Source of the DNA: Acidimicrobiia bacterium
GTDB taxonomy: Bacteria; Actinomycetota; Acidimicrobiia; Acidimicrobiales; Poriferisodalaceae
DNA length: 64,000 nt
Direction of reading: 5' to 3'
Assembly (NCBI GenBank): GCA_022820505.1
Contig: JAJEFK010000053.1
Coordinates: 62,001 to 126,000, forward strand
A program made the translations under genes and the position numbers. The notes under the pieces were generated by a model. The model was given only the letters and a program-made list of their open reading frames with translations. It did no database searches and was not told the DNA's origin. The first letter of the stretch is position 1, and each line of letters begins with the position of its first letter. Below are positions 7,740-40,755 of this stretch, in pieces.

Positions 7740-7747
7740 CGCGCCAT

Positions 7748-8268: not shown

Positions 8269-11200
8269 TCAGTCATTGTCGGTGATAGTGGCTTCTGCGA
8301 TGCCGTCGCCCAAGGTGGCGTAGGTGGTGTCCACCAGCAGCAGCCGCAGCAAGAACGTCTCGGATCCCTCGCCGCCGACGTCGTCGTCGATCAGTGAGAT
8401 CCGCACCGTCTTGGAGGTGTCGCCCGACGCGAACGTGACTTGGCCCCACTCGGGCAGATAGTCGCCGTAGGCCGTCGCGGTGGCACCCGGCACGGAGTAG
8501 TACACCGTCACCGAACCAGCCGCTGCAGTGCTCATCTCCACCGTGAAACTGACCGAGCCGTCGCCCTCACCCGCAGACACGTCACCCACCGAAATCGACG
8601 GTTTCGACGTCGGCGGTGCCGGGTCGTCATCATCCGCAATTGCGACGGTGGCTGTGCCAGCGGTTGCGGACACCGTGTAACCGCTGCCGGCGCTGATCGT
8701 CGCAGTGGCCGACCCGTCGGCCTCATCGGTGCTGTCATTCGTCGTGGTCACCGTCAGCGTGACGCTGCCCGACATGGGGATAGTCACTTGTCGCGACCCG
8801 GTCGCGACACCGAAGTCGCCGGACTGGGTAACGGTCACATTCACTGTCAGCGGCGCAAACAGAGCCGGATCGGCAGCAAGCGTGAACACAGCATCGCCGC
8901 CCTCAGTCATCCCGCTGCCTGCCGTAATGCTCACCACAGGGTCAGCTGGCGGTGCATCGTCATCATCGGACACCGGCACCGACGCCGAGTTTGCGGACTG
9001 ACGCACTGTGTAACCTGTTCCGTCGCCCACCGTGGCTGTCACCGAGCCGTCGGCCTCGTTGGCGTCGTCATCGGATGTCGTGATCGTCAGCGATCCGGTG
9101 CCTTCGGTCGAAATGACCACCTGATGCGACACGGCAGCCACACCGAAATCGCCCGACGACGTCACCGACACGTCAACTGTCAGCGGTGCCGACGGCGCTG
9201 GCGACGCAGAGACGGTGAAGATTGCCTTGCCGCCTTCGGTCACGGCATCACCTCCACTGACGCTCACCTCTGGCACAGTGCTACCGTCAGCTGTTGACGT
9301 GCTCTCCTTGTCATCACTACAGTTAACTGACTTGGCGACTTCCGCCCCTCCACTTCCTGCCGAGGGACCGACCAATACAACGAACACTCCAACGTACGGA
9401 ACTCTCCCTAGCGTCTGTCTCACGACTCCTTGCGCAACGGTGAAGCCAGCATCCGTTAGCGCACCACAGATGATCTCTGCATGGGCACTGTCGTCAAACA
9501 GCGACGCTGTCTTGGGACTAAATTCTGACGTCGACACTAAAATCGGACCGCTTCGCGCGAAAACTTGTTCCAACCATCGCATATTGTCCTTGACGAGCGA
9601 AGGAAGGGCTCTTCCTTGTTCCTTCTCGTATTCCTGAATGGCAGCCTCTAGATCGTAGCCCGATGCATGCCCAATCGCCGCTAGCTCGTAGTGACGCATA
9701 CAGAAATCGAATGCTTCACCGATATCAGGGTTAGCTCCTAGGACGCCGCTGCGTGACTCGGGGCACAAGATCGGGCGTCCTTGAGCATCTACATCAAACG
9801 GACTCCATAGAGTGGTGTTGGGGTTGACGATGCCGGACTTCGTTGTCCTTCGCGTGCACTCAAGTTGAACGATGTCGTGGCCGCCACCGGGCGGAATCCA
9901 ACGCTCGGTGTGGCCCGTACAGGATTCTCGCGGATGCACGCCACAGTTCGCATGACCCTTCGTATCAGTGTGACGATGCATTTGACGGGCCAAGTACCCG
10001 CTACTCACTGGACAGTCAATATCGGTAGGGCATGGGACGTCCTGATGAGTGTTTGTCGCAGAGTGCTTCGTATAGGTCCCCGAGCAGCGGGTGGGAACCT
10101 CGTGATTGTCATGGCACGATGACACGGGCTCGCCATCGAAACGATGTTGACCGTCAGAACACTCCAGATAGGTACATTTCGGGGTTGAATCGGGAGAATC
10201 TAGCCTATAACCCTCAGAGCACTTGTACTGGAAGCACATCGCTGTCGGCGAAGTCGAGTCCAAGCTATAGCCGTCAGGGCACACATATCGGAAACATTCG
10301 GTAGGAGAAGCAGTCGAGTCGAGTTGATAGTCCGCTGGGCAAACGTAGGTACTACACGTCGGCGGAGTAGTTTCCGGCGTGATCTCCGTGTCTCCTTCGT
10401 CACATGTGTAACGCACAACTCCTGGAAGCACTCGGCTGCAGGTTCTATCTGTGCTGTCTAGCGTCCATGTACTGTCAGGGCAGACTGAGGAACCATTGCC
10501 CAAGTAGGTGCCTGCTGGCCGCTTGCAGTGATTGGTGTTCGTGTCCAACACGTAGGTAGTCGGACAGGTTCGCTTCATGCGCTTCGGATCGAGCTTCACA
10601 GTCCGATCTACCGTTACCGTCACCTCGCGAACCACTGACTTGCAGCACTCCCATCGGGTGCGGGTTTCGTAGTTGTACGCGTCGACCGTCTCGTAGTTGT
10701 AAACGTCGCGCGTCTCATAGTTGTAGGCGTCCACCGTCTCGTAGTTGTACACGTCACGTGTTTCATAGTTGTACGCATCAACGGTTTCTGTCACTGTCTC
10801 AGTGACATTCCTATATGCCCACCGAATACACCCGGTACCGAACTCGTGGTCGTATTGGGCGCAGTAGCGCTGTCGACGTGTGTAGGTCTGGGTTACCGTC
10901 TCAGTGAATGGAGCGACACGAACAGTCTCGGTGTAGGGCGCCTTGCGCACCTGCGCCGTGTAAGGAGCGACACGAACAGTCTCGGTATACGGCGCCTTGC
11001 GCACCTGCGCCGTGTAGGGAGCGACACGAACCGTGTACTCAACTTCATATTGCACTTCGTCAACGGTCGTTCTTACTTCGTCAACCTGAATCGTTTTCTG
11101 ACACTGGCCACCCGTCAACGTCCAGCCGCCACCCGTTGGACAGCTGACAGTTGGGTGAGTGGTGTGCTCAGCGTTCGTGACGCAACGTCGGCCGCTAGCA

Positions 11201-11593
11201 GACACCATGACTGACGTGCCGTAGGCCGAGCAATCGGTATCGGCATCTTTGACTTCGCGCTTCTCGCAGCGCACTGGCTGCGGAGCCGGATCGCTTACCT
11301 CGACGAGGTCAAACCCAGCGATACAGTATGGCTTCGCGACATATGTGGATGTGGTCGGAGTGACGGTGCTGCGAGTAGCGCTGACCGTTTCACGTGTAGC
11401 TTCGACCGTTTTGCCAGTCGCTGAATCGCTTTCTGGCGGAGACGCCGGCCTAGTCGTCGAAGTCCCGGTAATGGGGGCCGGGGTGGTGGGGCCGTCTACC
11501 CCCCCCCCCCTTCTGCATCGCAGCCGCAGGGGTAAGCGGCAGGAAGAACAGGCAGGACAGGGTCACGACAATGGCGACGAGTGCTTTGCGCAT
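8269..11593 (-). CDS. Large secreted Calx-beta/Tyr-repeat protein, interrupted by a poly-G tract
   Basis: The body is an open frame from about 11274 (and in fact from the poly-G tract at about 11499) to the stop at 8269. The signal peptide (MRKALVAIVVTLSCLFFLPL, then TPAAA) starts at 11593 in another frame. The frames join if the G run at 11499-11510 had 11 instead of 12 residues, giving about 1107 residues. Order: signal peptide; Thr/Ser-rich stretch; 18-residue VRVAPYTAQVRKAPYTET repeats; 8-residue DAYNYETR repeats; Cys-rich ~20-residue repeats (CPDGYSLDS type); a globular part I cannot place; three Calx-beta domains (DDDANEADGSVTATV type). It is probably surface-exposed or secreted. It is either phase-variable, broken, or carries a sequencing error at the homopolymer. 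Confidence 0.72.
10150..10350 (-). repeat. Cys-rich ~20-residue repeats
   Basis: About three to four copies of a C-x4-(Y/H)-x-LDS-x(5-7)-C unit lie here (CPADYQLDS, CPDGYSLDS, CSEGYRLDS). The spacing suggests small disulphide-bonded modules, in keeping with an extracellular protein. Confidence 0.7.
10668..10790 (-). repeat. YNYET tandem repeats (48-bp unit, 24-bp half-unit)
   Basis: The coding strand repeats an 8-residue unit (V/R)D(A/V)YNYET five times, alternating VDAYNYET and RDVYNYET, so the DNA period is 48 bp with a 24-bp half period. Copies differ at silent positions. The block is bracketed by TETVTETV and a Cys-containing segment (RWECCKSVV). Confidence 0.85.
10905..11035 (-). repeat. 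VAPYT tandem repeats (54-bp unit)
   Basis: Two full and one partial copy of a 54-bp unit encode VRVAPYTAQVRKAPYTET (18 residues). On the plus strand the unit begins ggagcgacacgaac. Copies are nearly identical at the DNA level, which implies recent expansion. Confidence 0.85.
11499..11510 (-). repeat. 12-nt homopolymer (poly-G on the coding strand)
   Basis: Twelve consecutive C on the plus strand (G on the coding strand) lie about 28 codons inside the signal-peptide ORF of the large repeat protein. With 12 G the frame ends in RDFDD and a stop about 20 codons later. With 11 (or 14) G it continues through VDGPTTPAPITGTSTT into the 1001-residue body. Such tracts are classical sites of slipped-strand mispairing. 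Confidence 0.85.
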
Positions 11594-11720
11594 TTGATTT
11601 CCCAAGCTTTGGTGACCAGAGATCGAACTCGGGCCAAAGATCGAACCCAAGCAAGCTATCAGGTCCCCATAGCCTGTCAAGCTCCCGTCAGTACCGACAG
11701 CGGCACCCTGATCGCCCAGA

Positions 11721-11754
11721 CGCGAAAAGGCCGACGGGCTTAAGCCCGTCGGCC
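11721..11754 (-). terminator. Intrinsic terminator of the liv operon
   Basis: A perfect 26-bp palindrome, ggccgacgggctt/aagcccgtcggcc (11729-11754), is followed on the minus strand by TTTT. It sits about 90 bp past the stop of the binding-protein gene, which ends the minus-strand transport operon, and upstream of the start of the large repeat gene. Confidence 0.85.
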
Positions 11755-11840
11755 CAATCGCGCTGACTCGGAGACCAGCTAGCTACTGCCGGACGCCGCA
11801 GCCGGTTTGAACCAGCTGTTGCGTCTGGCAGGAGGCTTGC

Positions 11841-13556
11841 CTAGCGGCAGCCTCCATTGTCCTTGTCCCAGGCGCAGTTCGTGGACTTCCCGTTAACGTC
11901 CACGACATCGCCGACCTGGTCCCAGGTTTGCCCGGCAGCGTCGAATTGGCTGAAGTCTGAACCCTCAACGAAGTATGCATCCGCATTGCCGTTGAGTTGA
12001 GTGATGATGCCGTCGAGCAGCATCGGATGGTAGATGTCGATCGACCGCACCGCCAGGATGAAGTTCGTTCGGTTCAGGCCGCCCGGCAGGTCTGCAGCAA
12101 TGCGCAGCGCCTCGCCATAGGGGTAGCCATACATGTAACCCACACCGTTCAGCGAGTTACCCGGGTCGAGATCACCGGCTGCAAGGTTGTCGTTCAACCA
12201 TGTGATAAATGGCTCGTCAGCAAACTTCGAATCCGTGGTGTCCTTGCCACCGCCGCCAACGATCCACCATCCATCGGATGCGTCACCGGCCGGTTCCATG
12301 TAGTTGGCGACGGCCTTGCACACCGACGGCGTAAACAGCACGCCGCCCTTGTCCCTGACGTTCTCAATGAGACCGCTTTGGCCTGCTTCCTGGATGGCCA
12401 GCAAGCACGGGTTGCCCGCTGTCATCGAGATGAACACATCGGGGTCGAACGCCAAGACCGTCGTCATCTCGTTGGTCAGCGTCGGCGCGGCGGGGTCGTG
12501 ACGCACCGGGAGGAACTCGCTCACCACGTCGGTGTTCTCGTGCGCCCACTCCTCAAAGCCCAGCTCGTACGCCAGACCGAAGTCGTTGTCCATCACTAGG
12601 CCGGCAACCTTCACCGGCAGCAGATCGGCGAGGTTCTCCTTGATCCAGGCACCCCACAGGATCGACTCGGTCGAGTACGACATCTGCATGATGGTGGTCC
12701 ACGGGTGGTTCACCGGGTCGCCCCAAGCGGGGTGGCCGGTCATCACGAACGGGTGCGGGATGCACTCCGCGTTGATCTTGTCGTACACCGCGAGTGTGTT
12801 CGGCGAGCCCAGCGTCAGGATCGAGAACACGTTCTCCGCCTCAATCAGCTCATCCACGAACTCGATCGTCTGAGCGGCGACGTAGGCGTCGTCTTTGATG
12901 ATCAGCGTCAGGTCACGCGGCGCGCCGCCAACCATGATCGGGTCGTTGTCGTTGAGCCAGTTGAAATAGTTCTCCCAGCCGTAAGCGATGTTGCCGTAGG
13001 CGGCAAGGTTGCCGGACTGAGCCGTGGTGTGGCCGATACGGATCTGCGAGTCGGTGATGCCCGTGGTGTTCGACCAGTCGCTCGGGCACGCACTGATGTC
13101 GATCTCGAAGCCCGCAGGACCGCGCAGAATGCCGTCGTCGCCGACGCCGTACTCGCCTGACTCGATCTTCTCGGTCAGTGAAGCAACAGCCTTGGCGCGA
13201 CGGGCAGCGGCCTCTTCGAAGATGCCTTCGATGGTGGAGCGATCGAACATCATCTCCTCCTCTTCCATCATCTCCTCGTCGGCCATCTCGTCATCGTCGT
13301 CTTCGCCGGCAACGGCAGCTTCGATGTCTTCCTCGGCAGCGGCACCTCCGAGAGCACCGGTGGCACCCTCGTCTTCTTCCTCTGCCATCTCCTCTTCCTC
13401 GGCCATGTCGTCGCCTTCGCTCGGCGCGGCCGTGGTTTCGGTTTCTGTCTCGCTGGCGTCAGCGTCTGTGTCGTCATCGCCGCCGCCGCACGCAGCGGCT
13501 ACGAGCGAGAACGCGAACAGCAGAGCCAGCAAGCGCCACATTCGACGCTTGGTCAT
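11841..13556 (-). CDS. livK: Branched-chain amino acid-type ABC substrate-binding lipoprotein
   Basis: A 571-residue protein from the ATG at 13556 (GGGGAG site 10 nt upstream); a longer frame upstream has no such site. The lipoprotein signal is LLALLFAFSLVAAACGGG. An unusual acidic, Met-rich linker of about 100 residues follows (EGDDMAEEEEMAEEEDEG, DEMADEEMMEEEEMM). Then comes a type-I periplasmic binding fold (ITDSQIRIGHTTAQSGNLAA, DDAYVAAQTIEFVDELI). It would deliver an amino acid or amide to the LivHM permeases encoded upstream. It is the last gene of the operon, before the terminator. The ligand cannot be deduced: liv-type systems also carry urea and other amides. Confidence 0.88.
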   Translation of the reverse strand: MTKRRMWRLLALLFAFSLVAAACGGGDDDTDADASETETETTAAPSEGDDMAEEEEMAEEEDEGATGALGGAAAEEDIEAAVAGEDDDDEMADEEMMEEEEMMFDRSTIEGIFEEAAARRAKAVASLTEKIESGEYGVGDDGILRGPAGFEIDISACPSDWSNTTGITDSQIRIGHTTAQSGNLAAYGNIAYGWENYFNWLNDNDPIMVGGAPRDLTLIIKDDAYVAAQTIEFVDELIEAENVFSILTLGSPNTLAVYDKINAECIPHPFVMTGHPAWGDPVNHPWTTIMQMSYSTESILWGAWIKENLADLLPVKVAGLVMDNDFGLAYELGFEEWAHENTDVVSEFLPVRHDPAAPTLTNEMTTVLAFDPDVFISMTAGNPCLLAIQEAGQSGLIENVRDKGGVLFTPSVCKAVANYMEPAGDASDGWWIVGGGGKDTTDSKFADEPFITWLNDNLAAGDLDPGNSLNGVGYMYGYPYGEALRIAADLPGGLNRTNFILAVRSIDIYHPMLLDGIITQLNGNADAYFVEGSDFSQFDAAGQTWDQVGDVVDVNGKSTNCAWDKDNGGCR

Positions 13557-28040: not shown

Positions 28041-29462
28041 GTGACAAACGCCGCTGCGACGGGTGCGCGCGCCCTCAGCGAGAAGGTCTGGGACCGCCAC
28101 GTCGTTCGCACCGGCGGCGGGCAGCCCGATCTCCTCTATATCGACCTGCACCTCATCCATGAGGTCACCTCTCCGCAGGCCTTCGATGGCCTGCGCATGT
28201 CGGGGCGCACCGTACGCCGCCCAGACCTGACCGTGGCGACCGAGGACCACAACGTCCCCACCGCCGATCTGCACCTGCCCATCGCCGACCCGATCTCGGC
28301 CAAGCAGGTGGAGGTGCTGCGGGCGAACTGCGACGAGTTCGACATCACGCTGTACCCGATGGGCGATCCGGGCCAGGGCATCGTGCACGTCATCGGCCCC
28401 GAGCAGGGCCTCACGCTGCCCGGCATGACCGTGGTCTGCGGCGACAGCCACACCTCGACGCACGGTGCCTTCGGCGCGCTGGCCTTCGGCATCGGCACCT
28501 CCGAGGTGGAGCACGTGCTGGCGAGCCAGACGCTGCCGCAGGCACGGCCGTCCACCATGGAAGTCCGCGTCGACGGCGATGCGCCTGCGGGCGTGACCGC
28601 CAAAGACATCGTGCTGGCCATCATCGGACGCATCGGCACCGGTGGCGGCATCGGCCACATCATCGAGTACCGCGGTTCGGCTATCGAGGCGCTGTCGATG
28701 GAAGGACGGATGACCGTCTGCAACATGTCCATCGAGGCGGGCGCCAAGGCAGGCATGGTGGCGCCCGACGAGACCACCTTCGAGTACTTGGCAGGTCGCC
28801 CGCACGCCCCGACCGGGGCCGATTGGGAGGCCGCGGTGGCCGACTGGAGCTCGCTCGTCACCGACGAGGGCGCGGCCTTCGACCGCTCCGTGACCATCGA
28901 CGGCACCTCGCTGCGCCCGCACGTCACGTGGGGCACCAACCCCGCGCACGTCATTCCCATCGATGGCGCCGTGCCCGGCCCGGGTGACTTCAACGACCCG
29001 GTCGAGGCGACGACCGCCCAGCGGGCGCTGGACTACATGGGCCTCACCGCGGGCACCCGGTTGTCTGACGTGCAGGTCGACACGGTGTTCATCGGCAGCT
29101 GCACGAACTCGCGCATCGAGGATCTGCGGGCTGCCGCGGCGGTGGCCCGCGGCCGCACGGTGGCAGACGGCGTCCGCACCCTGGTGGTGCCCGGCTCGTT
29201 CGCCGTCAAGGCACAGGCCGAAGCGGAGGGGCTGGATGCGATCTTCGTCGAGGCGGGGTTCGATTGGCGCGAGCCCGGTTGCTCGATGTGCCTGGCGATG
29301 AACCCCGACAAGCTCTCGCCCGGCGAGCGCTCGGCGTCGACATCGAATCGCAACTTCGAGGGTCGGCAAGGCCGCGGCGGCCGCACGCACCTGTGCTCGC
29401 CGGAGGTGGCCGCAGCGACTGCCATCGCAGGTCGCTTTGTCACACCCGACGATCTCGGCTGA
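28041..29462 (+). CDS. leuC: 3-isopropylmalate dehydratase large subunit
   Basis: A 473-residue aconitase-family subunit from a GTG at 28041 (a TTG at 28005 in the same frame is possible; neither has a strong Shine-Dalgarno). The [4Fe-4S] cluster Cys lie in [14 protein letters not shown] and in [31 protein letters not shown] is also conserved. With LeuD it isomerises 2- to 3-isopropylmalate, and likewise citramalate to 3-methylmalate. LeuD follows 19 bp downstream. Confidence 0.94.
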
Positions 29463-29481
29463 TCCAGGGAGGAGCAAGCTG

Positions 29482-30072
29482 ATGGAGCCAGTACGCGTTC
29501 ATGAGGGGCGGGCGGTGCCCCTCGATCGCTCCGATGTGGATACCGACCAGATCATCCCCAGCGACTGGCTGAAGCGCGTCGAGCGCACCGGCTTCGGCAA
29601 GGGGCTGTTCAGCGAGTGGCGCGACGAGCGCGATTTTGTGCTGAATGACGAACGCTTCGCAGGCGCCACGGTGCTCGTAGCAGGGTCGAACTTCGGCACG
29701 GGATCGTCCCGCGAGCACGCCGTGTGGGCACTGATGGACTACGGCTTCGTGGCGGTGGTTTCGCCCCGCTTCGGGGACATCTTCCGCAACAACTCCACCA
29801 AGAACGGGCTGGTGCCGGTGCAGGTGTCCGAGGAGGCTGCCGCCCGCCTGCGGGCCGCCGTGGCTGCCGACCCCGACCTGACGGTGACGGTCGACGTGGA
29901 GCGGCGCCTGCTCAGCGCGCCCGCTGCGGGCATCGAGGAACCGTTTCCCATGGACGACGCAACACAGGAGCGCTTCCTCGAGGGTCTCGACGACATCGGC
30001 ATCACGCTGCGCAGCGCATCGGAGATCGACAGCTACGAGACAGAGCGTCCCGCCTGGCTGCCCACCACGTAG
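29482..30072 (+). CDS. leuD: 3-isopropylmalate dehydratase small subunit
   Basis: A 196-residue swivel-domain subunit. SDVDTDQIIPSDWLKRV and SNFGTGSSREHAVWAL (substrate loop) are diagnostic. The ATG at 29482 is preceded by a strong GGGAGGAG. It converges on the amidotransferase-P450 gene, with only 18 bp between stops. Confidence 0.95.
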   Translation: MEPVRVHEGRAVPLDRSDVDTDQIIPSDWLKRVERTGFGKGLFSEWRDERDFVLNDERFAGATVLVAGSNFGTGSSREHAVWALMDYGFVAVVSPRFGDIFRNNSTKNGLVPVQVSEEAAARLRAAVAADPDLTVTVDVERRLLSAPAAGIEEPFPMDDATQERFLEGLDDIGITLRSASEIDSYETERPAWLPTT

Positions 30073-30090: not shown

Positions 30091-32136
30091 CTAGGCAGGT
30101 TCTGGCTGGATATCGAGCCGCTTGAGGCCTCTCAGCAAGAAGCTGGGGTGATACTCGAAGTCGTTCGAGGCGGAGAGCGTGACGGAGCGCAGCCGCTGCG
30201 ACAGCTCTTCGGCCGCGACACGCCCTTCCAGCCGTGCCAGCGCCGCTCCCAAGCAGAAATGGATGCCCCGGCCGAATGCGACATGGTTGGACACGCCGTC
30301 GCGCATCGGGCAGAACGAGTCTGCGTCCTCGAAGACCGACCGGTCCCGGTTGGCCGAGCTGAACATCACCACCACGTGGGCACCGGCGGGGAGGTCGACG
30401 CCGGCGAGCCGCGCGTCTTTCTTCACCACGCGGAACATCCCCTGCGTCGGCGTCGACAGGCGAAGGGTTTCCTCCACAAATGCCGAGGCTCGCGACGGAT
30501 CCGATCTCAGCGCCTCCCACTCGGCGGGGTGCTCGGCCAGCAGCCGCAGCATCTCGGTGAGCATCTTGGTTGTGGTCTCGTTGCCGGCCACCAGCAGCTG
30601 CTGGATGATGCTGAGCATCTCCGCAATCGTGAGCGGCGCGGTCGACACCGCTTCACCGACGTCATCGCCCTCGCGGTCGATGCGGGCGTTCAGCAGGTTC
30701 GTCAGCAGATCGTCCTGCGGTTCGGTACGCCGACGCTCGAGCTGTTCGGCGAAGTACTTCTGGAATTCGATTACCTCGCGCTCGGCTTCAAGACGCTCCT
30801 CGACGGAGATATTGGTGCCGATGCCGGCAATGGAGGCGTCGCTCCAGCGCTTGAAGTCGGCAAGCCGATCCTCGGGGACGTTGAGCGCCCGGGCGATGAC
30901 CGCCACCGGGAGCGGCACCGCGAACGCCTCGACGAAATCCACCGAATCGCCGGCAGCGGCAGCGGCAGCGAGCATCTCGTCGATCAGGGCGGCGGCAATC
31001 TCGCGCACGGCGGGTTCGAGGTCGTTGACGACCTTGGGAGTGAACGCCTTGCTGACGAGACGGCGGAATCGGGTGTGCTCAGGAGGATCCGCCGTGAGCA
31101 TCGTGCCTACGCGGTCGTAACCGCCCTCGGCCTCATAGAGCTCCTTGGTGCGCCGAGCCAGCTCAGCGTTGCCGCGGCCGCCGACATCAAAACGAGAGGA
31201 GAACGTCCCAGGATCCCGCACTACCTCCAGCACGTCGTCGTACCTGGTGACCAGATGCAGCGCGGCACCGCCAGCCGCCGCCTCGAACACCGGTGCCGAT
31301 TCGCGCATCTTGGCGTAGTAGGCGTGCGGGCACTGCTGAACCGCCGGGTCGAACAGTCCGAAGTCGCTCAGGTCGACCTCGTGCGAGCCGGCGAAGAAGC
31401 GCAGCATCCAGCCGGCGACGAGTTCCTGGTTGCACGGCGCTGCCAGGCTGGCTTTGGCTTCGGCAACGGCATCGGCGCCCAGCAGCTCTGTGCGGCTCTC
31501 GTACAGCGGGCCGACAAACTCGGGCTGGAACTCTGGGTGGCCCTGCAGCCCGACGAGGTGCTCCCCCACCGCCAGCATTGCGATCGGGCACCGATCGGCG
31601 CCCGCCAGCGCCACGCCGCCCGGGGGCAGCGCCAGCACTTGGTCCTGATGGCTGTGGATGAGGCGGATCTCATCGGTGGGTGGGTCCATCCACGGGCGAC
31701 GCTCGTGGATCTTCCAGGCGTTCGCGCCCACGGTCCAGCCGTGCGAGGCCCGCTGCACCGTGCCGCCCAGCGCATGGGCGATCATCTGGTGCCCGAAGCA
31801 GACGCCGAACATCTTGCGGCCCTCAGCGTGCAGCTGCCGCACAAAATCGGCGAACCGGCTGATCCACGGCACATCGTCGTAGACCGAAGCGCGCGTTCCC
31901 GTGGTCATCCAGCCGTCATAGGCATCGAGGTCGTCAGGCCATTCGTCATCGGGGAGGCTGAACGTGTCCATCTGCACGCTGGGATCGACCCGGGCGATCA
32001 CGTCGGCGAACATGTCCGAATAGGTGCCGCAGATCGATCTCAGCTCGGGGATCGGATCGTCGCAGCGCAGCAGGCCCAGGCGCAGCGGACGGTGCTCGCC
32101 GGACGCGCCGGTCTCTCCTCGCTGGTTCTCTGGCAT
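30091..32136 (-). CDS. Glutamine amidotransferase-cytochrome P450 fusion
   Basis: One uninterrupted 681-codon frame from the ATG at 32136. Residues 17-250 are a class-I (GMP-synthase-like) glutamine amidotransferase with the full triad: C113 in GVCFGHQ, H200 and E202 in LQGHPEFQ. Residues 255-681 are a complete bacterial P450: I-helix VAGNETTTKM (517-525), ExxR at E556/R559, and haem ligand C628 in FGRGIHFCLG. There is no linker gap or second start: P450 sequence (FDPAVQQCPHAYYAKMRE) begins about ten residues after the amidotransferase ends. It is co-transcribed with the LLM monooxygenase (7 bp apart). The activity would need external ferredoxin; the substrate is unknown. A sequencing-made fusion is unlikely because the junction keeps both domains complete. 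Confidence 0.88.
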   Translation of the reverse strand: MPENQRGETGASGEHRPLRLGLLRCDDPIPELRSICGTYSDMFADVIARVDPSVQMDTFSLPDDEWPDDLDAYDGWMTTGTRASVYDDVPWISRFADFVRQLHAEGRKMFGVCFGHQMIAHALGGTVQRASHGWTVGANAWKIHERRPWMDPPTDEIRLIHSHQDQVLALPPGGVALAGADRCPIAMLAVGEHLVGLQGHPEFQPEFVGPLYESRTELLGADAVAEAKASLAAPCNQELVAGWMLRFFAGSHEVDLSDFGLFDPAVQQCPHAYYAKMRESAPVFEAAAGGAALHLVTRYDDVLEVVRDPGTFSSRFDVGGRGNAELARRTKELYEAEGGYDRVGTMLTADPPEHTRFRRLVSKAFTPKVVNDLEPAVREIAAALIDEMLAAAAAAGDSVDFVEAFAVPLPVAVIARALNVPEDRLADFKRWSDASIAGIGTNISVEERLEAEREVIEFQKYFAEQLERRRTEPQDDLLTNLLNARIDREGDDVGEAVSTAPLTIAEMLSIIQQLLVAGNETTTKMLTEMLRLLAEHPAEWEALRSDPSRASAFVEETLRLSTPTQGMFRVVKKDARLAGVDLPAGAHVVVMFSSANRDRSVFEDADSFCPMRDGVSNHVAFGRGIHFCLGAALARLEGRVAAEELSQRLRSVTLSASNDFEYHPSFLLRGLKRLDIQPEPA

Positions 32137-32143: not shown

Positions 32144-33256
32144 TCAGCGGAACGACGAGACCAGGGCGCTGTCGGAGCCCTCTGCGAGCGGTTCGAGCAG
32201 CCCCCGGTCACGCAGCATCGGCATGACGCCTTCGCCGAACCAGTACGCCTCTTCGAGGTGCGGGTAGCCCGACAGGATGAACTCGTCGAAGCCCAGCGCG
32301 TGGTATTCGGCAATGCGGTCCGCCACCTCGCTGTAGCTGCCGACCAGCGCCGTTCCGGCGCCGCCGCGGACAAGACCGATGCCCGACCACACATTGGGGT
32401 GGATCTCCAGCCGCCCGGTGCCCTCTGCGTGCAGCTGGGCCATGCGGCGCTGACCCTCCGACATCGTCGTGGCGAAGTCGGCCTGCGCGGCAGCGATGGC
32501 CTCGGGGCTCATGTGGGCCAGCATGTCGTCGGCCACGGCCCAGGCGTCGGCCGCGTCGGGCCGGGTGATGACATGGAAACGGATGCCGTAACGCAGCGTG
32601 CGGTCGTGCTCGGCGGCACGCGCACGCATCCGGTCCAGCCGCTCGGTCACCATGTCGGGCGGCTCGCCCCACGCCAGGTAGACGTCGACGTGCTGGGCCG
32701 CGATCTGCTCCGCAGCAGGCGACGCCCCGCCGAAGTAGATCGCCGGGAGCGGATCGGGCGCCTCGCGGGTGGTGGCGGCGGCGACCTTGTAGAAGTCGCC
32801 TTCGAAATCGAACGGCTCGCCCGACCACGCCTCCCGCACGATGCGCAGGAACTCGCCGGTCCGCGCATAGCGGGTGTCTTTGTCGAGCCAGTCGCCGAAG
32901 CGGTTCAGCTCACGCGGCTCCGCACCGGTGACGATGTTGATGAGCAGCCGCCCGCCCGACAGCCGCTGGTAGGTCGAGGCCATCTGTGCCGCCAGCGTGG
33001 GCGACAGGAAGCCTGGCCGGAAGGCCACGAGGAACTTGACGCGCTTGGTCAGCGGGGCCAGCGCAATGGTGGAGAGCCAGGCGTCCTCGCACATCGTGCC
33101 GCACGGCGTGAGCATCCCCTCATAGCCGAGTTGATCGCAGGCGGTCGCGATCTGGGCGAGATAATCCATCGACGGCGCCCGCCAGTGCGCTCCCGGCTCG
33201 TCGGGCAGCACATCACGGGAGTCGCCGCCCGTTGGCAAGAACCAATGGACCTTCAT
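32144..33256 (-). CDS. SsuD-like LLM-class flavin monooxygenase
   Basis: A 370-residue bacterial luciferase-like enzyme most like alkanesulfonate monooxygenase (LISPTL-type signature reads PGFLSPTLAAQMASTYQRLS; also GGRLLINIVTGAEPRELNRFGD and YFGGASPAAEQIAA). It would use FMNH2 and O2 to oxidise a substrate, classically cleaving C-S or C-N bonds. No flavin reductase is adjacent. It is the first gene of the operon with the P450 fusion and is divergent from the peptide-transporter operon; the 170 bp between them should hold both promoters. Confidence 0.9.
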   Translation of the reverse strand: MKVHWFLPTGGDSRDVLPDEPGAHWRAPSMDYLAQIATACDQLGYEGMLTPCGTMCEDAWLSTIALAPLTKRVKFLVAFRPGFLSPTLAAQMASTYQRLSGGRLLINIVTGAEPRELNRFGDWLDKDTRYARTGEFLRIVREAWSGEPFDFEGDFYKVAAATTREAPDPLPAIYFGGASPAAEQIAAQHVDVYLAWGEPPDMVTERLDRMRARAAEHDRTLRYGIRFHVITRPDAADAWAVADDMLAHMSPEAIAAAQADFATTMSEGQRRMAQLHAEGTGRLEIHPNVWSGIGLVRGGAGTALVGSYSEVADRIAEYHALGFDEFILSGYPHLEEAYWFGEGVMPMLRDRGLLEPLAEGSDSALVSSFR

Positions 33257-33426
33257 TGGCCGACCACCTTGCTGAGTGCGCAGTGCCGCACGCCGAGCGT
33301 CGCGCGTGCCGCTGTCGATGGCAACGACATCGTCGGTTACGGTAGCGCAGGCTCTGGCAGGGCCTAGCCAAGAATTGCACCCGTTGTCGTGTGACCGTGG
33401 GTGCCTCCAGGGAGGGAGACAGCCTC

Positions 33427-35217
33427 ATGAGGACCACGACAACGCGTGGCAGGCAGCGGAGCTTCGGCCGGCTGCTGATCGCGCTGCTTGCGGTATTCGC
33501 ACTGATCGCTGCGGCGTGCAGCAGTGACGACGACGGCGATGACGCCGCGCCGGCGACCACCGCCGCGGCGGACTCGGGCGGCGATGCCGGCGATGACATG
33601 GCCGATGACGGCGACATGGCTGACGACGACATGGCCGACGGCGACATGGCTGACGACGACATGTCCGACGACAGCGGCGACATGGATGACGACATGGCCG
33701 ATGACATGGCCGCTGCTGCGTGCAACCACGGGCAGAACGTGGGCGGGACGCTCATCATCGGCAGCACGCAGGTGCCGCGGCACCTGAACGGCACCGTGCA
33801 GTCGGGCTACGCCACCGCCGTGCCCGGCACGCAGCTCAACGCCAGCCCACTGCTGTACGACGCCGAGTACAACCCCATGCCGTACCTGGCCGAGAGCTGG
33901 GAAGTGGCCGACGATGGCCTCGCGGTGACGCTGCATCTGGTCGAAGACGCGGTGTTCCACGACGGCATGCCCATTACATCCGCCGACGTGGCGTTCTCAA
34001 TCCAGACCGTGCAGGCACATCACCCGTTCAAGACGATGTACGCACCGGTGACCACCGTGGACACGCCCGACGAGCACACCGCGGTGATCAACCTGAGCCA
34101 GCCGCACCCTGCGATTCTGCTGGCGATGTCGCCCGGTCTGCTGCCGATCATCCCCAAGCACGTCTTCGATGACGGCCAGGAGATGCCGACCCACCCGCGC
34201 AACAGCGAGGACTTCGTGGGCTCGGGCCCGTTCCGGCTGACCGAGTACGAGCCGGGCACGATCATCCGGATGGAGCGCTTCGACGACTTCTTCATCGAGG
34301 GCACGCCATGCCTGGACGAGATCGTGATGGAGATCACACCTGAGAGCACAGCCATCGTGCTCGGGCTCGAGAACGGCACGACCCACCTGTCGTCGACGCT
34401 GGGCCCGTCAGCGAACGTGCTGCGCCTGATGGACAACCCCGACGTCGAAGTGAGTGCCAAGGGCCACGAAGCCATCGGCCAGATCAACTGGCTGGAGATG
34501 AACGTGAACGACCCGGCGCTCTCGGACAAGCGGGTGCGGCAGGCGATCGCCTACGCGATCGATCGCGACTTCCTCTCCGAGGTCATCGACCAGGGGATCA
34601 CATTCCCCGTGCCGACCGGCATTGCGGCCGCCAGCCCGTTCCACAACCCGAACGTGAACCACTACGACAAGGACATCGATCGAGCGAAGGCGTTGTTGGC
34701 TGAGGCTGGCTACGGCCCGGGAGAGCTGCAGCTCTCCATCGACTACATCCCGCCGGCATTCGTGGTGCAAGCCGAGTATGTGCAGCAGCAACTGGAGGAA
34801 GCCGGCATCGAGGTTGAACTGAGCGTGTCACCCGACTTCCCGACCTGGGCGCAACGAGTCGCCGCCGGGGAGTACCAGATGACGATCAACCAGGTCTGGA
34901 ACTGGGGCGATCCGGTCATCGGCGTGCACCGCACCTACCTGTGCGACAACCGGGTGGGCGTGATCTGGACGAACAACACGGGCTACTGCAACCCCGATGT
35001 CGACGCGCTGCTCAACGCGGCCGGCCAGGAGTTCGACATTGACAAGCGTGCCGAGTTGTATGCCGAGTTCCAGGAGATCGTGGCCGAAGACATGCCGATC
35101 TTCTTCCTGAACACGCCCTCGTTCTGGCAGGCCTACAACCCGGCGGTCATGAACCCGCCGACCAACAACATCTGGGGGCAGATGTCGCCCATGCACGAGG
35201 TCTGGCTGGACGAGTAG
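33427..35217 (+). CDS. Peptide/opine/nickel ABC substrate-binding lipoprotein (family 5)
   Basis: A 596-residue protein from the ATG at 33427 (GGAGGGAG site). The lipobox is LIAAACSS. Residues about 35-100 are a striking Asp/Met/Ala repeat (GDMADDDMADGDMADDDM). The SBP_bac_5 fold follows, with YNPMPYLAESWEVADDGLAV, VGSGPFRLTEYEPG and VRQAIAYAIDRDFL. It delivers a ligand to the permeases encoded next. The ligand class (oligopeptide, opine, glycoside or metal chelate) cannot be decided. Confidence 0.9.
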   Translation: MRTTTTRGRQRSFGRLLIALLAVFALIAAACSSDDDGDDAAPATTAAADSGGDAGDDMADDGDMADDDMADGDMADDDMSDDSGDMDDDMADDMAAAACNHGQNVGGTLIIGSTQVPRHLNGTVQSGYATAVPGTQLNASPLLYDAEYNPMPYLAESWEVADDGLAVTLHLVEDAVFHDGMPITSADVAFSIQTVQAHHPFKTMYAPVTTVDTPDEHTAVINLSQPHPAILLAMSPGLLPIIPKHVFDDGQEMPTHPRNSEDFVGSGPFRLTEYEPGTIIRMERFDDFFIEGTPCLDEIVMEITPESTAIVLGLENGTTHLSSTLGPSANVLRLMDNPDVEVSAKGHEAIGQINWLEMNVNDPALSDKRVRQAIAYAIDRDFLSEVIDQGITFPVPTGIAAASPFHNPNVNHYDKDIDRAKALLAEAGYGPGELQLSIDYIPPAFVVQAEYVQQQLEEAGIEVELSVSPDFPTWAQRVAAGEYQMTINQVWNWGDPVIGVHRTYLCDNRVGVIWTNNTGYCNPDVDALLNAAGQEFDIDKRAELYAEFQEIVAEDMPIFFLNTPSFWQAYNPAVMNPPTNNIWGQMSPMHEVWLDE

Positions 35218-35284: not shown

Positions 35285-36268
35285 ATGCTGAGGTCCATCG
35301 CTGCCAGGATCGCCCAAGCACTCGGGCTGATCCTGGCAGTGATGTGCCTCAACTTCTTGCTGATCCACATCACGCCGGGCGATCCCGCCACGGTGATCGT
35401 GGGCGAGAGCGGCGCCGGCGATCCTGAGCTGCTGGAGGAGATCCGCGCGCAATACGGCCTCGACCGCCCGGTCATCGTGCAGCTCGCGTCGTATGTGGGC
35501 CGGGTCGCCACCGGTGACCTGGGCGATTCGTACTTCTTCAACCAGTCGGTGACGTCGCTGATCCTCCAACGCCTGTGGCCCACCGTGCTGCTGGTGGGAA
35601 CCGCGCTGGCGTTTGCCGTGGCGGCTGGGACGATGGTCGGCGTCGCCACCGCGCGCCGTCCCGAGAGCCCGCTCAGCCATGGAGCGACCGTGCTGGCGCT
35701 GGTGGGCTTCTCGATGCCGGTCTTCTGGACCGGGATCATGCTGGTGATCCTGTTCGCCTCTGCCTGGAAGCTGCTGCCCGTGCAGGGGTGGCACGACGTG
35801 AACTACGGCGAGGGCCTGCTCGCGAATGTGCTCGACGTGGGCGAGCACCTGGTGCTGCCCGCGCTCACGCTCGGCCTCATCTACCTGGCGCAGTACAGCC
35901 GGCTGTCTCGGGCGTCGATGCTGGAAGTGCTCGAGTCGGACTATGTGCGCACAGCGCGGGCCAAGGGCCTGAACGAGCGCCGAGTCGTATACAAGCACGC
36001 GCTGCGCAACGCCGTCATCCCCGTGGTGACCGTGGTGGGTCTGCAGTTCGGCGCGCTGCTGTCTGGGGCGCTGCTCGTCGAGACCGTATTCAACTGGCCC
36101 GGGCTCGGCCGATTGGCGTTCGACTCGATTCTCCGCCGGGACACCTCGGTGCTGCTCGGCGTGCTGATGGTGTCGTCGGTGATGGTGATCGTGGCCAATC
36201 TGCTCACCGATCTGCTGTACACGATTATCGACCCGCGCATCCGGCTGCGGGAGCGTTCCAATGTCTGA
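35285..36268 (+). CDS. DppB-type ABC permease
   Basis: A 327-residue membrane permease with the DppB/OppB pattern. An N-terminal helix is followed by the periplasmic segment (DPELLEEIRAQYGLDRPV), and the EAA loop is YVRTARAKGLNERRVVYKHALRNA. The C-terminal signature is ETVFNWPGLGRLA. It overlaps the dppC-type gene by 8 bp. The ATG at 35285 follows AAGGACGGAGC. Confidence 0.93.
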   Translation: MLRSIAARIAQALGLILAVMCLNFLLIHITPGDPATVIVGESGAGDPELLEEIRAQYGLDRPVIVQLASYVGRVATGDLGDSYFFNQSVTSLILQRLWPTVLLVGTALAFAVAAGTMVGVATARRPESPLSHGATVLALVGFSMPVFWTGIMLVILFASAWKLLPVQGWHDVNYGEGLLANVLDVGEHLVLPALTLGLIYLAQYSRLSRASMLEVLESDYVRTARAKGLNERRVVYKHALRNAVIPVVTVVGLQFGALLSGALLVETVFNWPGLGRLAFDSILRRDTSVLLGVLMVSSVMVIVANLLTDLLYTIIDPRIRLRERSNV

Positions 36269-37190
36269 CGCGATGGGACGTGGCGAGGTGGCCGCCGCCG
36301 ATCTGCCCGTCGCACCCGGCCTGGGCGCCGGCGGCGAAGGCGGATCGGGTCGCCCAGGTCGCGAAACGCTGCGGTTGTTCGTGCGCAACAAGGCGGCAGT
36401 GGCCGGTGTGGTGATGCTCATCGGGATCGTCTTCATGACGGTCGCCGGGCCGCGGATCTACGACAACGATCCCAAGGACATCGTGGCCATCCCGCTCACT
36501 GGTCCCGGAGAGCTGGCCGAGGCCCGCTTGGGCACCGACTATTTGGGACGCGATGTGCTGGCCGGGGTGATCGGGGGCGGCACGACCAGCATGACGGTGG
36601 CTGCCATGGCGGCTGCGATGGTGCTGGTGATCGGCATCAGCATCGGCGCGCTCGCCGGCTATTACGGCGGCTGGCTCGACAGCGCCCTCATGCGCTTCAC
36701 CGAGTTCTTCCAGGTGCTGCCTGCGCTGCTGTTCGCGATGGTGCTCGTGGCGCTGTTCGAGCCGTCGATGTGGACGATCTCGTTCGCCATCGGCGTAGTG
36801 GCGTGGCCGGGGATCGCTCGCATCACCCGTGCGGAGTTCCTGAGACTGAAGAACCTGGAGTTCGTGCGGGCAGCCCGAGCGGTGGGAGCGACGGACTGGC
36901 GCATCATTCGCAAGGTGGTGTTCCCCAATGCGCTGCCGCCGCTCATCGTGTCGGCCACGCTCATCATGGGCACGGCAATCCTGTTCGAGGCGGGGCTGGC
37001 GTTCCTGGGACTCGGTGATCCCAACACCACGAGCTGGGGCTTGATGATCGGGCTGAACCGGGGGAACTTCCTGACGGCGTGGTGGTCGGTGACCTTCCCT
37101 GGACTGGCGATCTTCTTCACCGTGCTGAGCTTCAGCCTCATCGGCGACGGGCTGCAGGATGCCTACAACCCCAAGCTGCGGGGACGCTGA
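36261..37190 (+). CDS. DppC-type ABC permease
   Basis: A 309-residue permease with an extra hydrophilic N-terminus (~35 residues), a first helix, then the DppC segment RLGTDYLGRDVLAGVIGGG. The EAA loop is FVRAARAVGATDWRIIRKVVFPN. It forms the channel with the DppB-type protein. The 3-bp gap to the next ATPase gene indicates tight coupling. Confidence 0.93.
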   Translation: MSDAMGRGEVAAADLPVAPGLGAGGEGGSGRPGRETLRLFVRNKAAVAGVVMLIGIVFMTVAGPRIYDNDPKDIVAIPLTGPGELAEARLGTDYLGRDVLAGVIGGGTTSMTVAAMAAAMVLVIGISIGALAGYYGGWLDSALMRFTEFFQVLPALLFAMVLVALFEPSMWTISFAIGVVAWPGIARITRAEFLRLKNLEFVRAARAVGATDWRIIRKVVFPNALPPLIVSATLIMGTAILFEAGLAFLGLGDPNTTSWGLMIGLNRGNFLTAWWSVTFPGLAIFFTVLSFSLIGDGLQDAYNPKLRGR

Positions 37191-37193
37191 GCG

Positions 37194-38129
37194 ATGAGCG
37201 CTCTGGCGAATGGCGACGGCGCCCCGGGCGATTCGCCACGGCTGCGGGTTCGGGGCCTGACCGTCGGCTTCGACGAGTTCATCGCCGTGAACGACGTGTC
37301 GTTCGACCTGCACGACGGCGGGACGCTGGCGGTGGTCGGCGAGTCGGGCTCGGGCAAGTCGGTGACTGCGCTGTCGATCATGCGGCTCATCGAGATCGGC
37401 ACCCGGGCGGAGATTCACAGCGGCGAGGTGCTGTTCCGCCACGACGACGGCAGCGTCGACGACTTGCTGCAGCTGCCCGAACCGCAGATGCGATCGATCC
37501 GGGGCGATCGCATCTCGATGATCTTCCAGGAACCGCTGACCAGCCTCAACCCCGTCTATACCGTCGGCAGCCAGATCGGCGAGGCGCTGCGGCTCCACCG
37601 TGGGATGAACCGCAGCGAGGCGCGCGAGCGCACGTTGGAGATGCTCAACCGGGTGCGCATTCCCGACGCTGCGCGCCGGATCGACCAGTACCCCCACGAG
37701 ATGTCGGGCGGGATGCGCCAGCGGGTCATGATCGCCATGGCGCTTGCCTGCGACCCGGCGATCCTGATCGCGGACGAGCCGACGACCGCGCTCGACGTGA
37801 CGATCCAGGCGCAGATTCTCGCCCTCATCGCCGAGATGCAGCGCGAGACCGGCGCAGCCGTGCTGATCATCACCCATGACATGGGCGTCGTGGCGGAAAT
37901 CGCCGACGAGGTGGTGGTGATGCAACAGTCGCGACTGGTGGAGCGCGGCCATGTCTCGGACATCTTCGATCGGCCCAGCGAGCCCTACACGCAGTCGTTG
38001 CTGGCTGCGGTGCCACGGCTCGGATCGATGGCGGGCGTCGAGGCCCCGCAGCGCTTCGAGCTGATCGATCCCGATGCGCTGGCGGCTGCGGGCTCCGGGG
38101 CGGACAGCGAGGGGGGCTCGGACTCGTGA
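37194..38129 (+). CDS. DppD-type ABC transporter ATPase
   Basis: A 311-residue ATPase. Walker A is GESGSGKS, the oligopeptide-type RGDRISMIFQEPLTSLNPVY is present, the signature is MSGGMRQR and Walker B is AILIADEPTTALD. The C-terminal extension typical of Dpp/Opp ATPases lacks the usual Cys-rich iron-sulphur motif. It overlaps the dppF-type gene by 4 bp. Confidence 0.93.
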   Translation: MSALANGDGAPGDSPRLRVRGLTVGFDEFIAVNDVSFDLHDGGTLAVVGESGSGKSVTALSIMRLIEIGTRAEIHSGEVLFRHDDGSVDDLLQLPEPQMRSIRGDRISMIFQEPLTSLNPVYTVGSQIGEALRLHRGMNRSEARERTLEMLNRVRIPDAARRIDQYPHEMSGGMRQRVMIAMALACDPAILIADEPTTALDVTIQAQILALIAEMQRETGAAVLIITHDMGVVAEIADEVVVMQQSRLVERGHVSDIFDRPSEPYTQSLLAAVPRLGSMAGVEAPQRFELIDPDALAAAGSGADSEGGSDS

Positions 38130-39052
38130 CGCAGCACGATGCCCCGGCGCCGATCGTCGAGGTCGAAGCGCTCACCAAGCATTTCCCGGCCAGTCATGGT
38201 GCCCGCGTGCACGCCGTGGAGCAGGTCAGCCTGCACATCGATCGCGGCGAGACGCTGGCGGTGGTCGGCGAGAGCGGTTGCGGCAAATCGACGCTGGCCT
38301 ACCTGATCATCCGCCTGCTGAATCCGACCAGCGGCACCATCCGGCTCGACGGCACCGACATCACGAGTCTCGGTCCCCGGGCGCTGCGGCCTCACCGGCG
38401 CAAGGCGCAGATCGTCTTCCAGGACCCGTTCGCCAGCCTGGATCCCCGGCGCACCGTGGGCAAAGCGATTGCCGAGCCGCTCGAGATCCATCGTGCCGTG
38501 CCCAAGCGCGAGATCAATGACGTGGTCGCCGACCTGCTGCGACGGGTCGGCATGTCGCCCGACGACATGCGGCAGTACCCGCACCAATTCTCCGGGGGTC
38601 AGCGCCAGCGCATCTGCATCGCCCGGGCCTTGGCGCTGCGGCCCGAGCTGGTGATCGCCGACGAGGCGGTGTCCGCGCTGGATGTCTCGATCCAGGCACA
38701 GGTCATCAACCTGATGATGGATCTGCAGGAAGAGATGGGCCTGTCGTACCTGTTCATCAGCCATGACCTCGCCGTCGTGGAGCGGATCGCTCACCGGGTG
38801 GGGGTGATGTATCTCGGCCAGATCGTGGAGCTGGGTCCGCGCCGGGCCATCTTCGAAAATCCCATGCACGACTACACCAAGCGGTTGCTCGACGCGGTGC
38901 CGATCGCCGATCCGGCACGCCGCCGGACTGACCGCTCGGTGCAGACCGATGAGGTGCCCAGCCCAGTCTTCGAAGCCGGCACCGCCCCCGACCCCGTGAC
39001 CCTGGTGGAAGTGGAACCGGGACACCTCGTGGCACAGGAGGCAAACGACTGA
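38126..39052 (+). CDS. DppF-type ABC transporter ATPase
   Basis: A 308-residue ATPase. Walker A is GESGCGKS, IVFQDPFASLDPRRTV is the DppF-type Q-loop region, the signature is FSGGQRQR and Walker B is ELVIADEAVSALD. The Glu in DEA is where most members have DEP, a mild variant. The stop shares one base with the ATG of the amidohydrolase, so transport and hydrolysis are co-expressed. Confidence 0.93.
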   Translation: MTQHDAPAPIVEVEALTKHFPASHGARVHAVEQVSLHIDRGETLAVVGESGCGKSTLAYLIIRLLNPTSGTIRLDGTDITSLGPRALRPHRRKAQIVFQDPFASLDPRRTVGKAIAEPLEIHRAVPKREINDVVADLLRRVGMSPDDMRQYPHQFSGGQRQRICIARALALRPELVIADEAVSALDVSIQAQVINLMMDLQEEMGLSYLFISHDLAVVERIAHRVGVMYLGQIVELGPRRAIFENPMHDYTKRLLDAVPIADPARRRTDRSVQTDEVPSPVFEAGTAPDPVTLVEVEPGHLVAQEAND

Positions 39053-40755
39053 TGACGACAGCCCACACCGGCCGCAGCGACGAGAACGAACCATTCGTGA
39101 TCTACCCGGCGCGCCGGGTCATCACCATCAACCCCGCGTTCCCCTTCGGAGAGGCAGTGGCGGTGTCGGGCGATCGCATCCTGGGCGTCGGCAGCGCCGA
39201 CGAGCTGGCCTCATGGGGTGGCCATCGAGTCGATGATCGCTTCGCCGAACACGTGCTCATGCCCGGGTTCATCGAGGCGCACTGCCACGTCATGTCGGGC
39301 GGGCTGTGGAACTCCACCTACGTCGGCTACTTCGACCGGCGCGACCCCCAGGGGCTGCTGTGGCCGGGCTGCACCTCGATCGACGATGTGCTCGAACGGC
39401 TGGGCAAGGCCGCCGCCGACATGACCGACGATTCTCAGACGCTGCTGGCATGGGGCCTCGACCCCATCTACTTCCCGGGCGAGCGGCTCGTGGCGCGCCA
39501 CCTCGACACCGTGACCGGCGACCGGCCGACGCTGATACTGCATGCCAGCGGGCACCTCGCCACGATCAACTCGGCGCTCATGGACCGATGCGGGATCGAC
39601 GAGACGGCGACCAGCCCCGGCGTGGCCCGCGGCGGCGACGGACTGCCCAACGGCGAGCTGCATGAGCCCGCCGGGATGATGCTGGCCGGCGAAGCGTTCG
39701 CCGACATGATGCAGGCCAACCGCAGCGAGCAGGCCCGCTGGCGCTATGCGAACGAAGCTCGCAACGCCGGTCACACCCTGCTGACCGACCTGGGCACCAC
39801 ACAGCTCTGGGACCCTGAGCAGCTCGGCAACTGGAAGAAGGTGACCAGCGATGCCGCCTATCCGGCGCGGGTGATGGTGGCGATGTCGAACCTGTTCGGG
39901 GCCACGGCCGACCCGGCGGAATTGGCCGAGCTGTGCGTGAAGCTGAAGAGCGAGCAGACCGACAAGCTGCGCTTCGGCATCGTCAAGCTGATCCTGGACG
40001 GCTCGATCCAGGGGTTCACGGCCCGTATCAGCTGGCCGCACTACTACAAGCCGCCGCCGGGTCACATCGGCAACGGCATGTGGCTGACGGCGCCCGACCA
40101 GATGGCCGACCTGATGGAGCCATACCACCGAGCCGGCTTGACCGTGCACTGTCACTGCAACGGGGATGAGGCCACCGAGGCGTTCGTCCAAGCCGTCGAG
40201 CAGGTGCTGGAGCGCTACCCCCGCTGGGACCACCGCCACACGGTGCAGCACTGCCAGCTCACCACACCCGACCAGTACCGCCGCATGGCAGCCCTGGGCA
40301 TGTGCGCCAACATCTTCTCGAACCACATCTACTACTGGGGCGACCAGCACCGGGACGTGACCGTGGGACCCGAGCGTGCGGCGCGGATGGATGCCTGCGC
40401 GACCGCCTTGGCCAGCGGGGTCAGCTTCTCGATCCACTCGGATTCGCCGATCACGCCGCTGGGGCACCTGCACACCGCGTGGTGCGCGGTGAATCGGGTG
40501 ACGGCGTCGGGCGAGGTGCTTGGGCCGGATGAGCGCATCGGCGTGCCGGACGCGCTGCGGGCCATCACGATCGAGGCGGCCCGCCAGATCAAGATGGACG
40601 GCGAGATCGGCAGCATCGAAGCCGGCAAGCTGGCCGACTTTGCCGTGCTGGAGGACGACCCGCTGAGCGTCGACCCGATGGCGCTGCGTGACATCGGGGT
40701 GTGGGGCACCGTGCTGGGAGGCGTGCTGCAGCCCGCCCAGATCAGCGACGTGTAA
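39052..40755 (+). CDS. YtcJ-like amidohydrolase
   Basis: A 567-residue metal-dependent amidohydrolase of the YtcJ/amidohydrolase-3 branch. The first metal motif is FIEAHCHVMSGG, the later conserved parts are TVHCHCNGDEATEAF and HRHTVQHCQLT, the last metal Asp region is SIHSDSPITPLG, and the tail GEIGSIEAGKLADFAVLEDD is typical. It is cytoplasmic (no signal). It ends the transporter operon and probably hydrolyses an amide, ester or lactam of the imported compound. Substrate unknown. Confidence 0.9.
   Translation: MTTAHTGRSDENEPFVIYPARRVITINPAFPFGEAVAVSGDRILGVGSADELASWGGHRVDDRFAEHVLMPGFIEAHCHVMSGGLWNSTYVGYFDRRDPQGLLWPGCTSIDDVLERLGKAAADMTDDSQTLLAWGLDPIYFPGERLVARHLDTVTGDRPTLILHASGHLATINSALMDRCGIDETATSPGVARGGDGLPNGELHEPAGMMLAGEAFADMMQANRSEQARWRYANEARNAGHTLLTDLGTTQLWDPEQLGNWKKVTSDAAYPARVMVAMSNLFGATADPAELAELCVKLKSEQTDKLRFGIVKLILDGSIQGFTARISWPHYYKPPPGHIGNGMWLTAPDQMADLMEPYHRAGLTVHCHCNGDEATEAFVQAVEQVLERYPRWDHRHTVQHCQLTTPDQYRRMAALGMCANIFSNHIYYWGDQHRDVTVGPERAARMDACATALASGVSFSIHSDSPITPLGHLHTAWCAVNRVTASGEVLGPDERIGVPDALRAITIEAARQIKMDGEIGSIEAGKLADFAVLEDDPLSVDPMALRDIGVWGTVLGGVLQPAQISDV

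Follow-up and report, generated by a model that had tools for sequence, protein, structure and literature searches.

The window analyzed here, a 64,000-nucleotide stretch of DNA from an Acidimicrobiia bacterium, contains a gene that joins a class-I glutamine amidotransferase (GATase) to a cytochrome P450. A single uninterrupted frame on the minus strand, from an ATG at position 32136 to a TAG at 30091, translates into 681 residues. An earlier reading, made from the sequence only, had described a single-polypeptide GATase–P450 fusion at 30091-32136; its coordinates are right, and the minus strand, which it left unstated, can be added. The gene lies between a convergent leuD-like gene and a set of monooxygenase, transporter, and hydrolase genes, with no redox partner seen beside it:

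29437..30072, plus strand: leuD-like gene (Aconitase_C), convergent, bounding the insertion site; start codon uncertain
30091..32136, minus strand: GATase–P450 fusion gene, 681 aa, ATG at 32136 and TAG at 30091-30093; from translation, domain search, and orthologous fusions in three other species
30094..31377, minus strand: P450 domain, residues 254-681, with AGNET, ExxR (556-559), and heme Cys 628; from domain search, residue check, a confident model, and the folds of CYP109Q5 and CYP125MRCA
31369..31389, minus strand: junction, residues 250-256 (GSHEVDL), where the GATase end (FFAGSD-stop in an unfused outgroup) passes straight into the P450 N terminus
31390..32085, minus strand: GATase domain, residues 18-249, catalytic C113/H200/E202; from domain search, a model with pLDDT 93.6, and a fold match to gamma-glutamyl peptidase 1
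32144..33256, minus strand: SsuD-like FMNH2-type (LLM) monooxygenase, 370 aa (Bac_luciferase), 7 bases upstream of the fusion
33391..35217, plus strand: SBP_bac_5 peptide-type ABC substrate-binding protein, from domain search; syntenic in 11 of 11 congeners
35285-36268 and 36261-37190, plus strand: Opp-type ABC permeases, within the transporter at 35285..39052
37194-38129 and 38126-39052, plus strand: Opp-type ABC ATPases, within the same transporter
39052..40755, plus strand: Amidohydro_3 family hydrolase, from domain search

Elsewhere in the window, positions 8269-11274 encode a predicted protein of 1001 aa whose C terminus has a Calx-beta domain, and they overlap the window's lowest-GC stretch (~0.58 at 10-12 kb).

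Domain structure of the fusion protein

Pfam places GATase (PF00117) at residues 93-206, with 45.6 bits against a cut-off of 22.8 and a family E of 8.6e-12; it places p450 (PF00067) at residues 269-648, with 102.7 bits against a gathering score of 22.8 (E 2.8e-29). Together with these scores, a Cys-His-Glu triad marks the first half as having a class-I glutamine amidotransferase fold, and an ExxR motif and FxxGxxxCxG heme loop mark the second as a cytochrome P450. The catalytic residues named in the sequence-only reading (C113/H200/E202, E556/R559, and the heme ligand C628) were all located at those positions in a residue check, along with AGNET at 517-521 and FGRGIHFCLG at 621-630. In an alignment of 26 GATases C113, H200, and E202 are invariant, and across the aligned P450s E556, R559, and C628 are nearly so.

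The two domains are joined directly. The fusion reads FFAGS-HEVDLSDFGLFDP where the unfused outgroup GATase ends in FFAGSD and a stop, and a standalone relative of the P450 (L008) begins with MTDTADLSEFGLFDP, near the point of the junction. Comparison of these ends with the fusion indicates that few residues were lost from each. The P450 had been placed within about ten residues of the GATase end; the linker is even shorter than that. An in-frame ATG is found at residue 244 (WMLRFF) with no ribosome-binding site before it by eye, so internal initiation is not suggested. In an AlphaFold model of the whole fusion the P450 is good and the GATase poor, because the alignment was thin; a separate model of the GATase domain has a mean pLDDT of 93.6. 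The P450 is modeled confidently, with CYP109 (CYP109Q5) and CYP125-type (CYP125MRCA) proteins as its nearest solved structures, which are too distant to give the P450 a substrate name.

The fusion is conserved in four species of one genus

The fusion could in principle be an artifact, due to chimeric assembly, an error in sequencing, or a recent mutation that allows read-through, and every genome involved is a draft assembly. However, a GTDB genome scan with short peptide patterns, which detects close relatives only, found three further full-length fusions in separately deposited genomes, 92-94% identical (92-93% over the best segment in the scan), with the identical junction and no frameshift or stop. 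The fusion, with the same junction, is therefore present in 4 of the 11 species of the genus (G000, G001, G002, and G004), and all four loci are syntenic, with leuC (named from its position next to leuD) and leuD on one side and the SsuD-like monooxygenase and Opp transporter on the other. Among the fusion orthologues, which differ pairwise by dS 0.23-0.50, the GATase half has a pairwise dN/dS of 0.07-0.11 and the P450 half one of 0.11-0.15; both halves are under purifying selection. The common junction in four species and the low dN/dS argue against both an assembly error and a recent mutation. We therefore rejected an artifact, to which the three other species and the strong codon constraint leave next to no probability. 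Junction conservation in relatives, a check named beforehand, thus held in three other species, and the outcome that had been singled out as adverse, with close relatives always having two separate genes, is not what the genus displays.

Searches beyond the genus returned only separate proteins. No match covering both halves was found outside the genus in 296 genomes of the class (E 1e-60), and the 7 long P450 frames from that search have no GATase partner. The 15 other GATase relatives from Actinomycetota (396 phylum genomes) are all unfused; two long frames among the Actinomycetota relatives (L225, L226) are spurious extensions rather than fusions. In total, no fusion was found outside the genus in ~700 Actinomycetota genomes. 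No GATase–P450 fusion turned up in the 72,556 plasmid records searched; the only annotated pair there is adjacent but unfused, as are two others that were inspected. A PHROGs search gave nothing useful, and no GATase–P450 fusion was found in the open-access literature. The earlier statement that no standard family has this architecture agrees with its absence from the other lineages searched. The fusion is genuine and kept by selection, and of the lineages searched only one has it; as far as we have seen, its parts are known and their combination is new and limited to one small group.

Origin of the fusion

In three congeners (G006, G008, and G010) the syntenic locus has the GATase alone, with its stop just before the convergent leuD and no P450; in the remaining four (G003, G005, G007, and G009) the monooxygenase and GATase are absent from the locus and leuD adjoins the transporter. 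Neither the limitation of the fusion to 4 of 11 congeners nor the lack of a P450 at the locus in the other three GATase-bearing congeners had been foreseen from the window. The bases after the P450 stop resemble the intergenic DNA of the unfused locus, which is what an inserted P450 gene would leave behind it. The fused P450s form one clade (support 100/98), and in a tree of syntenic genes G010 falls outside and the four fusion species group with G006 and G008, the branching among these not being settled. A single origin of the fusion is well supported, the probable event being one in-frame addition of a P450 downstream of the GATase.

A P450 of the same family stands alone at another, home, locus in G003, G006, G009, and G010, and this site lacks a P450 in all four fusion genomes. 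The difference, 0 of 4 fusion versus 4 of 7 other congeners, is only suggestive of mutual exclusion (Fisher p about 0.11). The home-site P450s, including that of outgroup G010, form their own clade (100/99) and are 71-74% identical to the fused P450s, whereas most neighboring genes are ~85-97% identical. We therefore do not favor a simple late move of the standalone P450 within the genus, but an AU test (p 0.42) does not reject the fused and home clades as sisters. By these comparisons, the fused P450 has probably not moved recently; it is more likely to be an older paralogue, or to have been transferred from a different Acidimicrobiia lineage. Near the home site, a Rieske/ring-hydroxylating oxygenase alpha-subunit homologue (L177/L198, G008:C81) is broken in G008 by a missing segment and a stop, and is intact in most of its congeners.

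Standalone P450s of other Acidimicrobiia (e.g., L004-L012) belong to the same subfamily, with full-length matches at 63-73% identity, but are unfused in the loci examined. Their neighbors (LPG-synthase-like, F420-dependent oxidoreductase, SDR, and PEP-utiliser proteins) differ from those of the fusion locus, and elsewhere the family is found beside F420-dependent oxidoreductases and lipid-type enzymes, not GATases. An F420-dependent LLM oxidoreductase and a PEP-utiliser-domain protein often adjoin the standalone P450s (L006, L011, L025, L050, and similar; ~31 of 61 loci), the oxidoreductase beside the L006 P450 being of the TIGR03621 type. One contig labeled as a Bifidobacterium breve MAG (L024) carries P450s typical of Acidimicrobiia loci and is probably mislabeled or contaminated.

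The GATase half is related to gamma-glutamyl peptidase 1

The solved protein nearest to the GATase is plant gamma-glutamyl peptidase 1 (GGP1; Arabidopsis, PDB 9k7i), which is nearest by sequence (phmmer 93.8 bits) and is ahead of all other solved GATases both by profile (E 2e-39) and by fold match to the model (E 2e-23, TM 0.87, with the next solved protein at E 4e-17); the GATases of GMP synthase and anthranilate synthase are well behind by either measure. GGP1 is a GATase-fold cysteine hydrolase with the same catalytic motifs, but is only ~27% identical to the fusion GATase, has 260 residues and no P450, and acts on glutathione, which it degrades in plants (PMC10243980). Against the NCBIfam amidotransferase model PRK05665, the whole protein scores 186.7 bits and the GATase alone 188.1, below the cut-off of 309. 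In L214, L215, L216, and L231, a GS-like gene lies ~0.8-2.3 kb from a GATase that is 41-43% identical to the fused one. Judged by sequence and model, the GATase half is probably a gamma-glutamyl hydrolase.

Two roles had been suggested for the amidotransferase, hydrolysis of gamma-glutamyl-protected substrates and supply of ammonia to a P450 product. We prefer the first, because GGP1 is nearest by sequence and fold and some relatives are near GS-like ligases. In the second, glutamine hydrolysis would feed ammonia to a P450-made intermediate; some GATase fusions channel ammonia, and the class-I triad is intact here. However, the closest kin is a peptidase with the GMP-synthase GATases clearly behind it, no synthetase or amination partner was found at the fusion locus, and relatives of the GATase are free-standing, many of them beside a monooxygenase. 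To our knowledge P450 chemistry does not use ammonia, and we consider ammonia channeling highly improbable.

The GATase belongs to an older monooxygenase–GATase pair

The monooxygenase encoded upstream of the fusion scores 438 and 429 bits against alkanesulfonate monooxygenase models with curated cut-offs of 510 and 518, the second being the SsuD equivalog TIGR03565, and its sequence is thus SsuD-like rather than that of a certified SsuD. Adjacent SsuD-like monooxygenase and GATase genes occur in at least 10 genomes outside the genus, both in the same family (L220, L221, L222, and L224) and in other families of Acidimicrobiales (L230, L235, L237, L241, L242, and L243). In L230, L241, L242, and L243 the GATase is a few to ~70 bases downstream of the monooxygenase on the same strand. 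The pair predates the fusion and is conserved across several Acidimicrobiales families, so that the flavin monooxygenase, noted earlier as a neighbor suggesting a two-oxygenase pathway, is a true partner of the GATase. The pair has TetR regulators nearby in L224, L230, and L244, and a branched-chain amino-acid-type ABC transporter directly adjoins it in L221 and L222, the transporter in the fusion genus being Opp-type.

These neighbors could point to sulfur scavenging, in which the monooxygenase, a GGP1-like peptidase, and the Opp importer would import and break down glutathione-type or other gamma-glutamyl organosulfur compounds and the P450 would add an S- or C-oxidation. The monooxygenase is nearest to alkanesulfonate monooxygenase, glutathione is what GGP1 breaks down (PMC10243980), and a transporter adjoins the module both here and in L221/L222. 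Nevertheless, the monooxygenase falls below the SsuD cut-offs, Opp specificity is not readable from sequence, and the Opp genes adjoin leuD in congeners without the module, so the link may be only positional. We think this variant of the hydrolase–P450 reading set out below rather unlikely.

GATases and P450s occur as separate genes in gamma-glutamylation pathways

In the published isopropylamine (Ipu) pathway, a ligase (IpuC), a P450, and then a GATase-type hydrolase (IpuF) act in turn, the last two on one gamma-glutamyl amide (PMC6776027). Compared with the fusion by that description, the Ipu enzymes are not joined to one another, and their cluster includes a GS-like ligase. AtdA2 and NpaA2, of aniline and naphthylamine degradation, are GATase-like proteins described as hydrolyzing gamma-glutamylated aniline or naphthylamine, and they are accompanied by an oxygenase and by a gamma-glutamyl ligase of the GS-like kind (PMC11335346); by description they differ from the fusion in being encoded by separate genes and in having a Rieske dioxygenase, not a P450, as partner.

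Plasmids of Sagittula stellata and Novosphingobium (L210, L211, and L212) carry GS-like, GATase, and P450 genes in that order, adjacent or overlapping. These operons hold the same two enzyme types, GATase then P450, and are a candidate unfused counterpart of the fusion; unlike it, they include a ligase, and their proteins, at ~30% identity in each half (30-32% for Sagittula), are not close homologues of it by sequence. Since GATase, P450, and ligase work together in gamma-glutamylation pathways, the fusion would join two functions that already cooperate. The host genome has its own cluster elsewhere (L146, G000:C41:24000-43000), where positions 4324-11867 encode a periplasmic binding protein and a class-I GATase along with two P450s and two GS-like ligases. 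Its P450-P450-GATase part recurs in 10 of 11 congeners, and the cluster looks like a gamma-glutamylation pathway for amine degradation. These GS-like genes are away from the fusion, and no GS-like gamma-glutamyl ligase was found among the genes annotated around the fusion.

A putative bifunctional gamma-glutamyl hydrolase/P450

Our best explanation, with a roughly even chance of being right, is that the protein is a lineage-specific bifunctional gamma-glutamyl hydrolase/P450 in a catabolic module, extending an older monooxygenase/gamma-glutamyl-hydrolase module. A P450 gene would have been acquired immediately behind an ancestral SsuD-like monooxygenase–GATase pair, continuing the frame of the GATase with no stop between them, and a single chain would thereby combine two enzymes for one compound class. 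The N-terminal half, like GGP1 or IpuF, would remove a gamma-glutamyl group through its Cys-His-Glu triad, and the C-terminal half would be a soluble P450 of the bacterial type, dependent on separate redox partners. Most likely, the compound oxidized by the P450 would be an amine, a peptide, or an organosulfur compound that carries a gamma-glutamyl group or has just lost it, and the GATase would release glutamate, beside a peptide-type importer and a flavin monooxygenase. Hydrolase activity is inferred here from kinship in sequence and model, and a common substrate and any channeling from gene association; P450 activity and the order of steps are likewise conditional.

Several observations weigh against this reading. 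With no ligase at the locus and ~30% identity to the GS-operon counterparts, identity with an Ipu-type pathway is by analogy, and the substrate of GGP1 is glutathione, not an Ipu-type compound. Seven of the 11 congeners are without the fusion, and the three that retain the GATase alone indicate that the P450 is not needed for its older role. Elsewhere, the neighbors of the P450 family are not GATases, and the fusion gene itself has no redox partner in view beside it.

The main rival is a bystander fusion, in which a P450 gene came to lie behind the GATase and is simply expressed from the same promoter as part of the same chain, the substrates of the two halves being unrelated and selection keeping each half rather than their coupling. 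The fusion is kept in only four species of one genus, the older pair works without the P450, and the P450 family occupies other gene contexts; both halves are intact, yet dN/dS does not test coupling, and in the four genomes that lack the standalone home-site P450 the fusion could merely replace it. Against this, GS operons that include both a GATase and a P450 are found repeatedly, in unrelated bacteria as well as the fusion genus itself, and no stop separates the halves in four of four species. We find this rival somewhat doubtful, but serious.

The known natural P450 fusions mostly supply electrons. In its fullest form, which we put forward tentatively and with the chances somewhat against it, the bifunctional hydrolase/P450 reading describes a covalently coupled deglutamylase-monooxygenase that would pass gamma-glutamyl-protected intermediates between hydrolase and P450, its partner domain being a substrate-processing hydrolase and not a redox module, and that would give one more processing step to an old Acidimicrobiales pathway of flavin monooxygenase and gamma-glutamyl hydrolase. 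The fusion flags that conserved monooxygenase–GATase pair, for which we found no described function, and, in the manner of a Rosetta stone, it hints that the GATases and P450s encoded separately in amine-degradation operons share intermediates. If the reading is true, a P450–gamma-glutamyl hydrolase fusion would physically couple the removal of a protecting group to oxidation.
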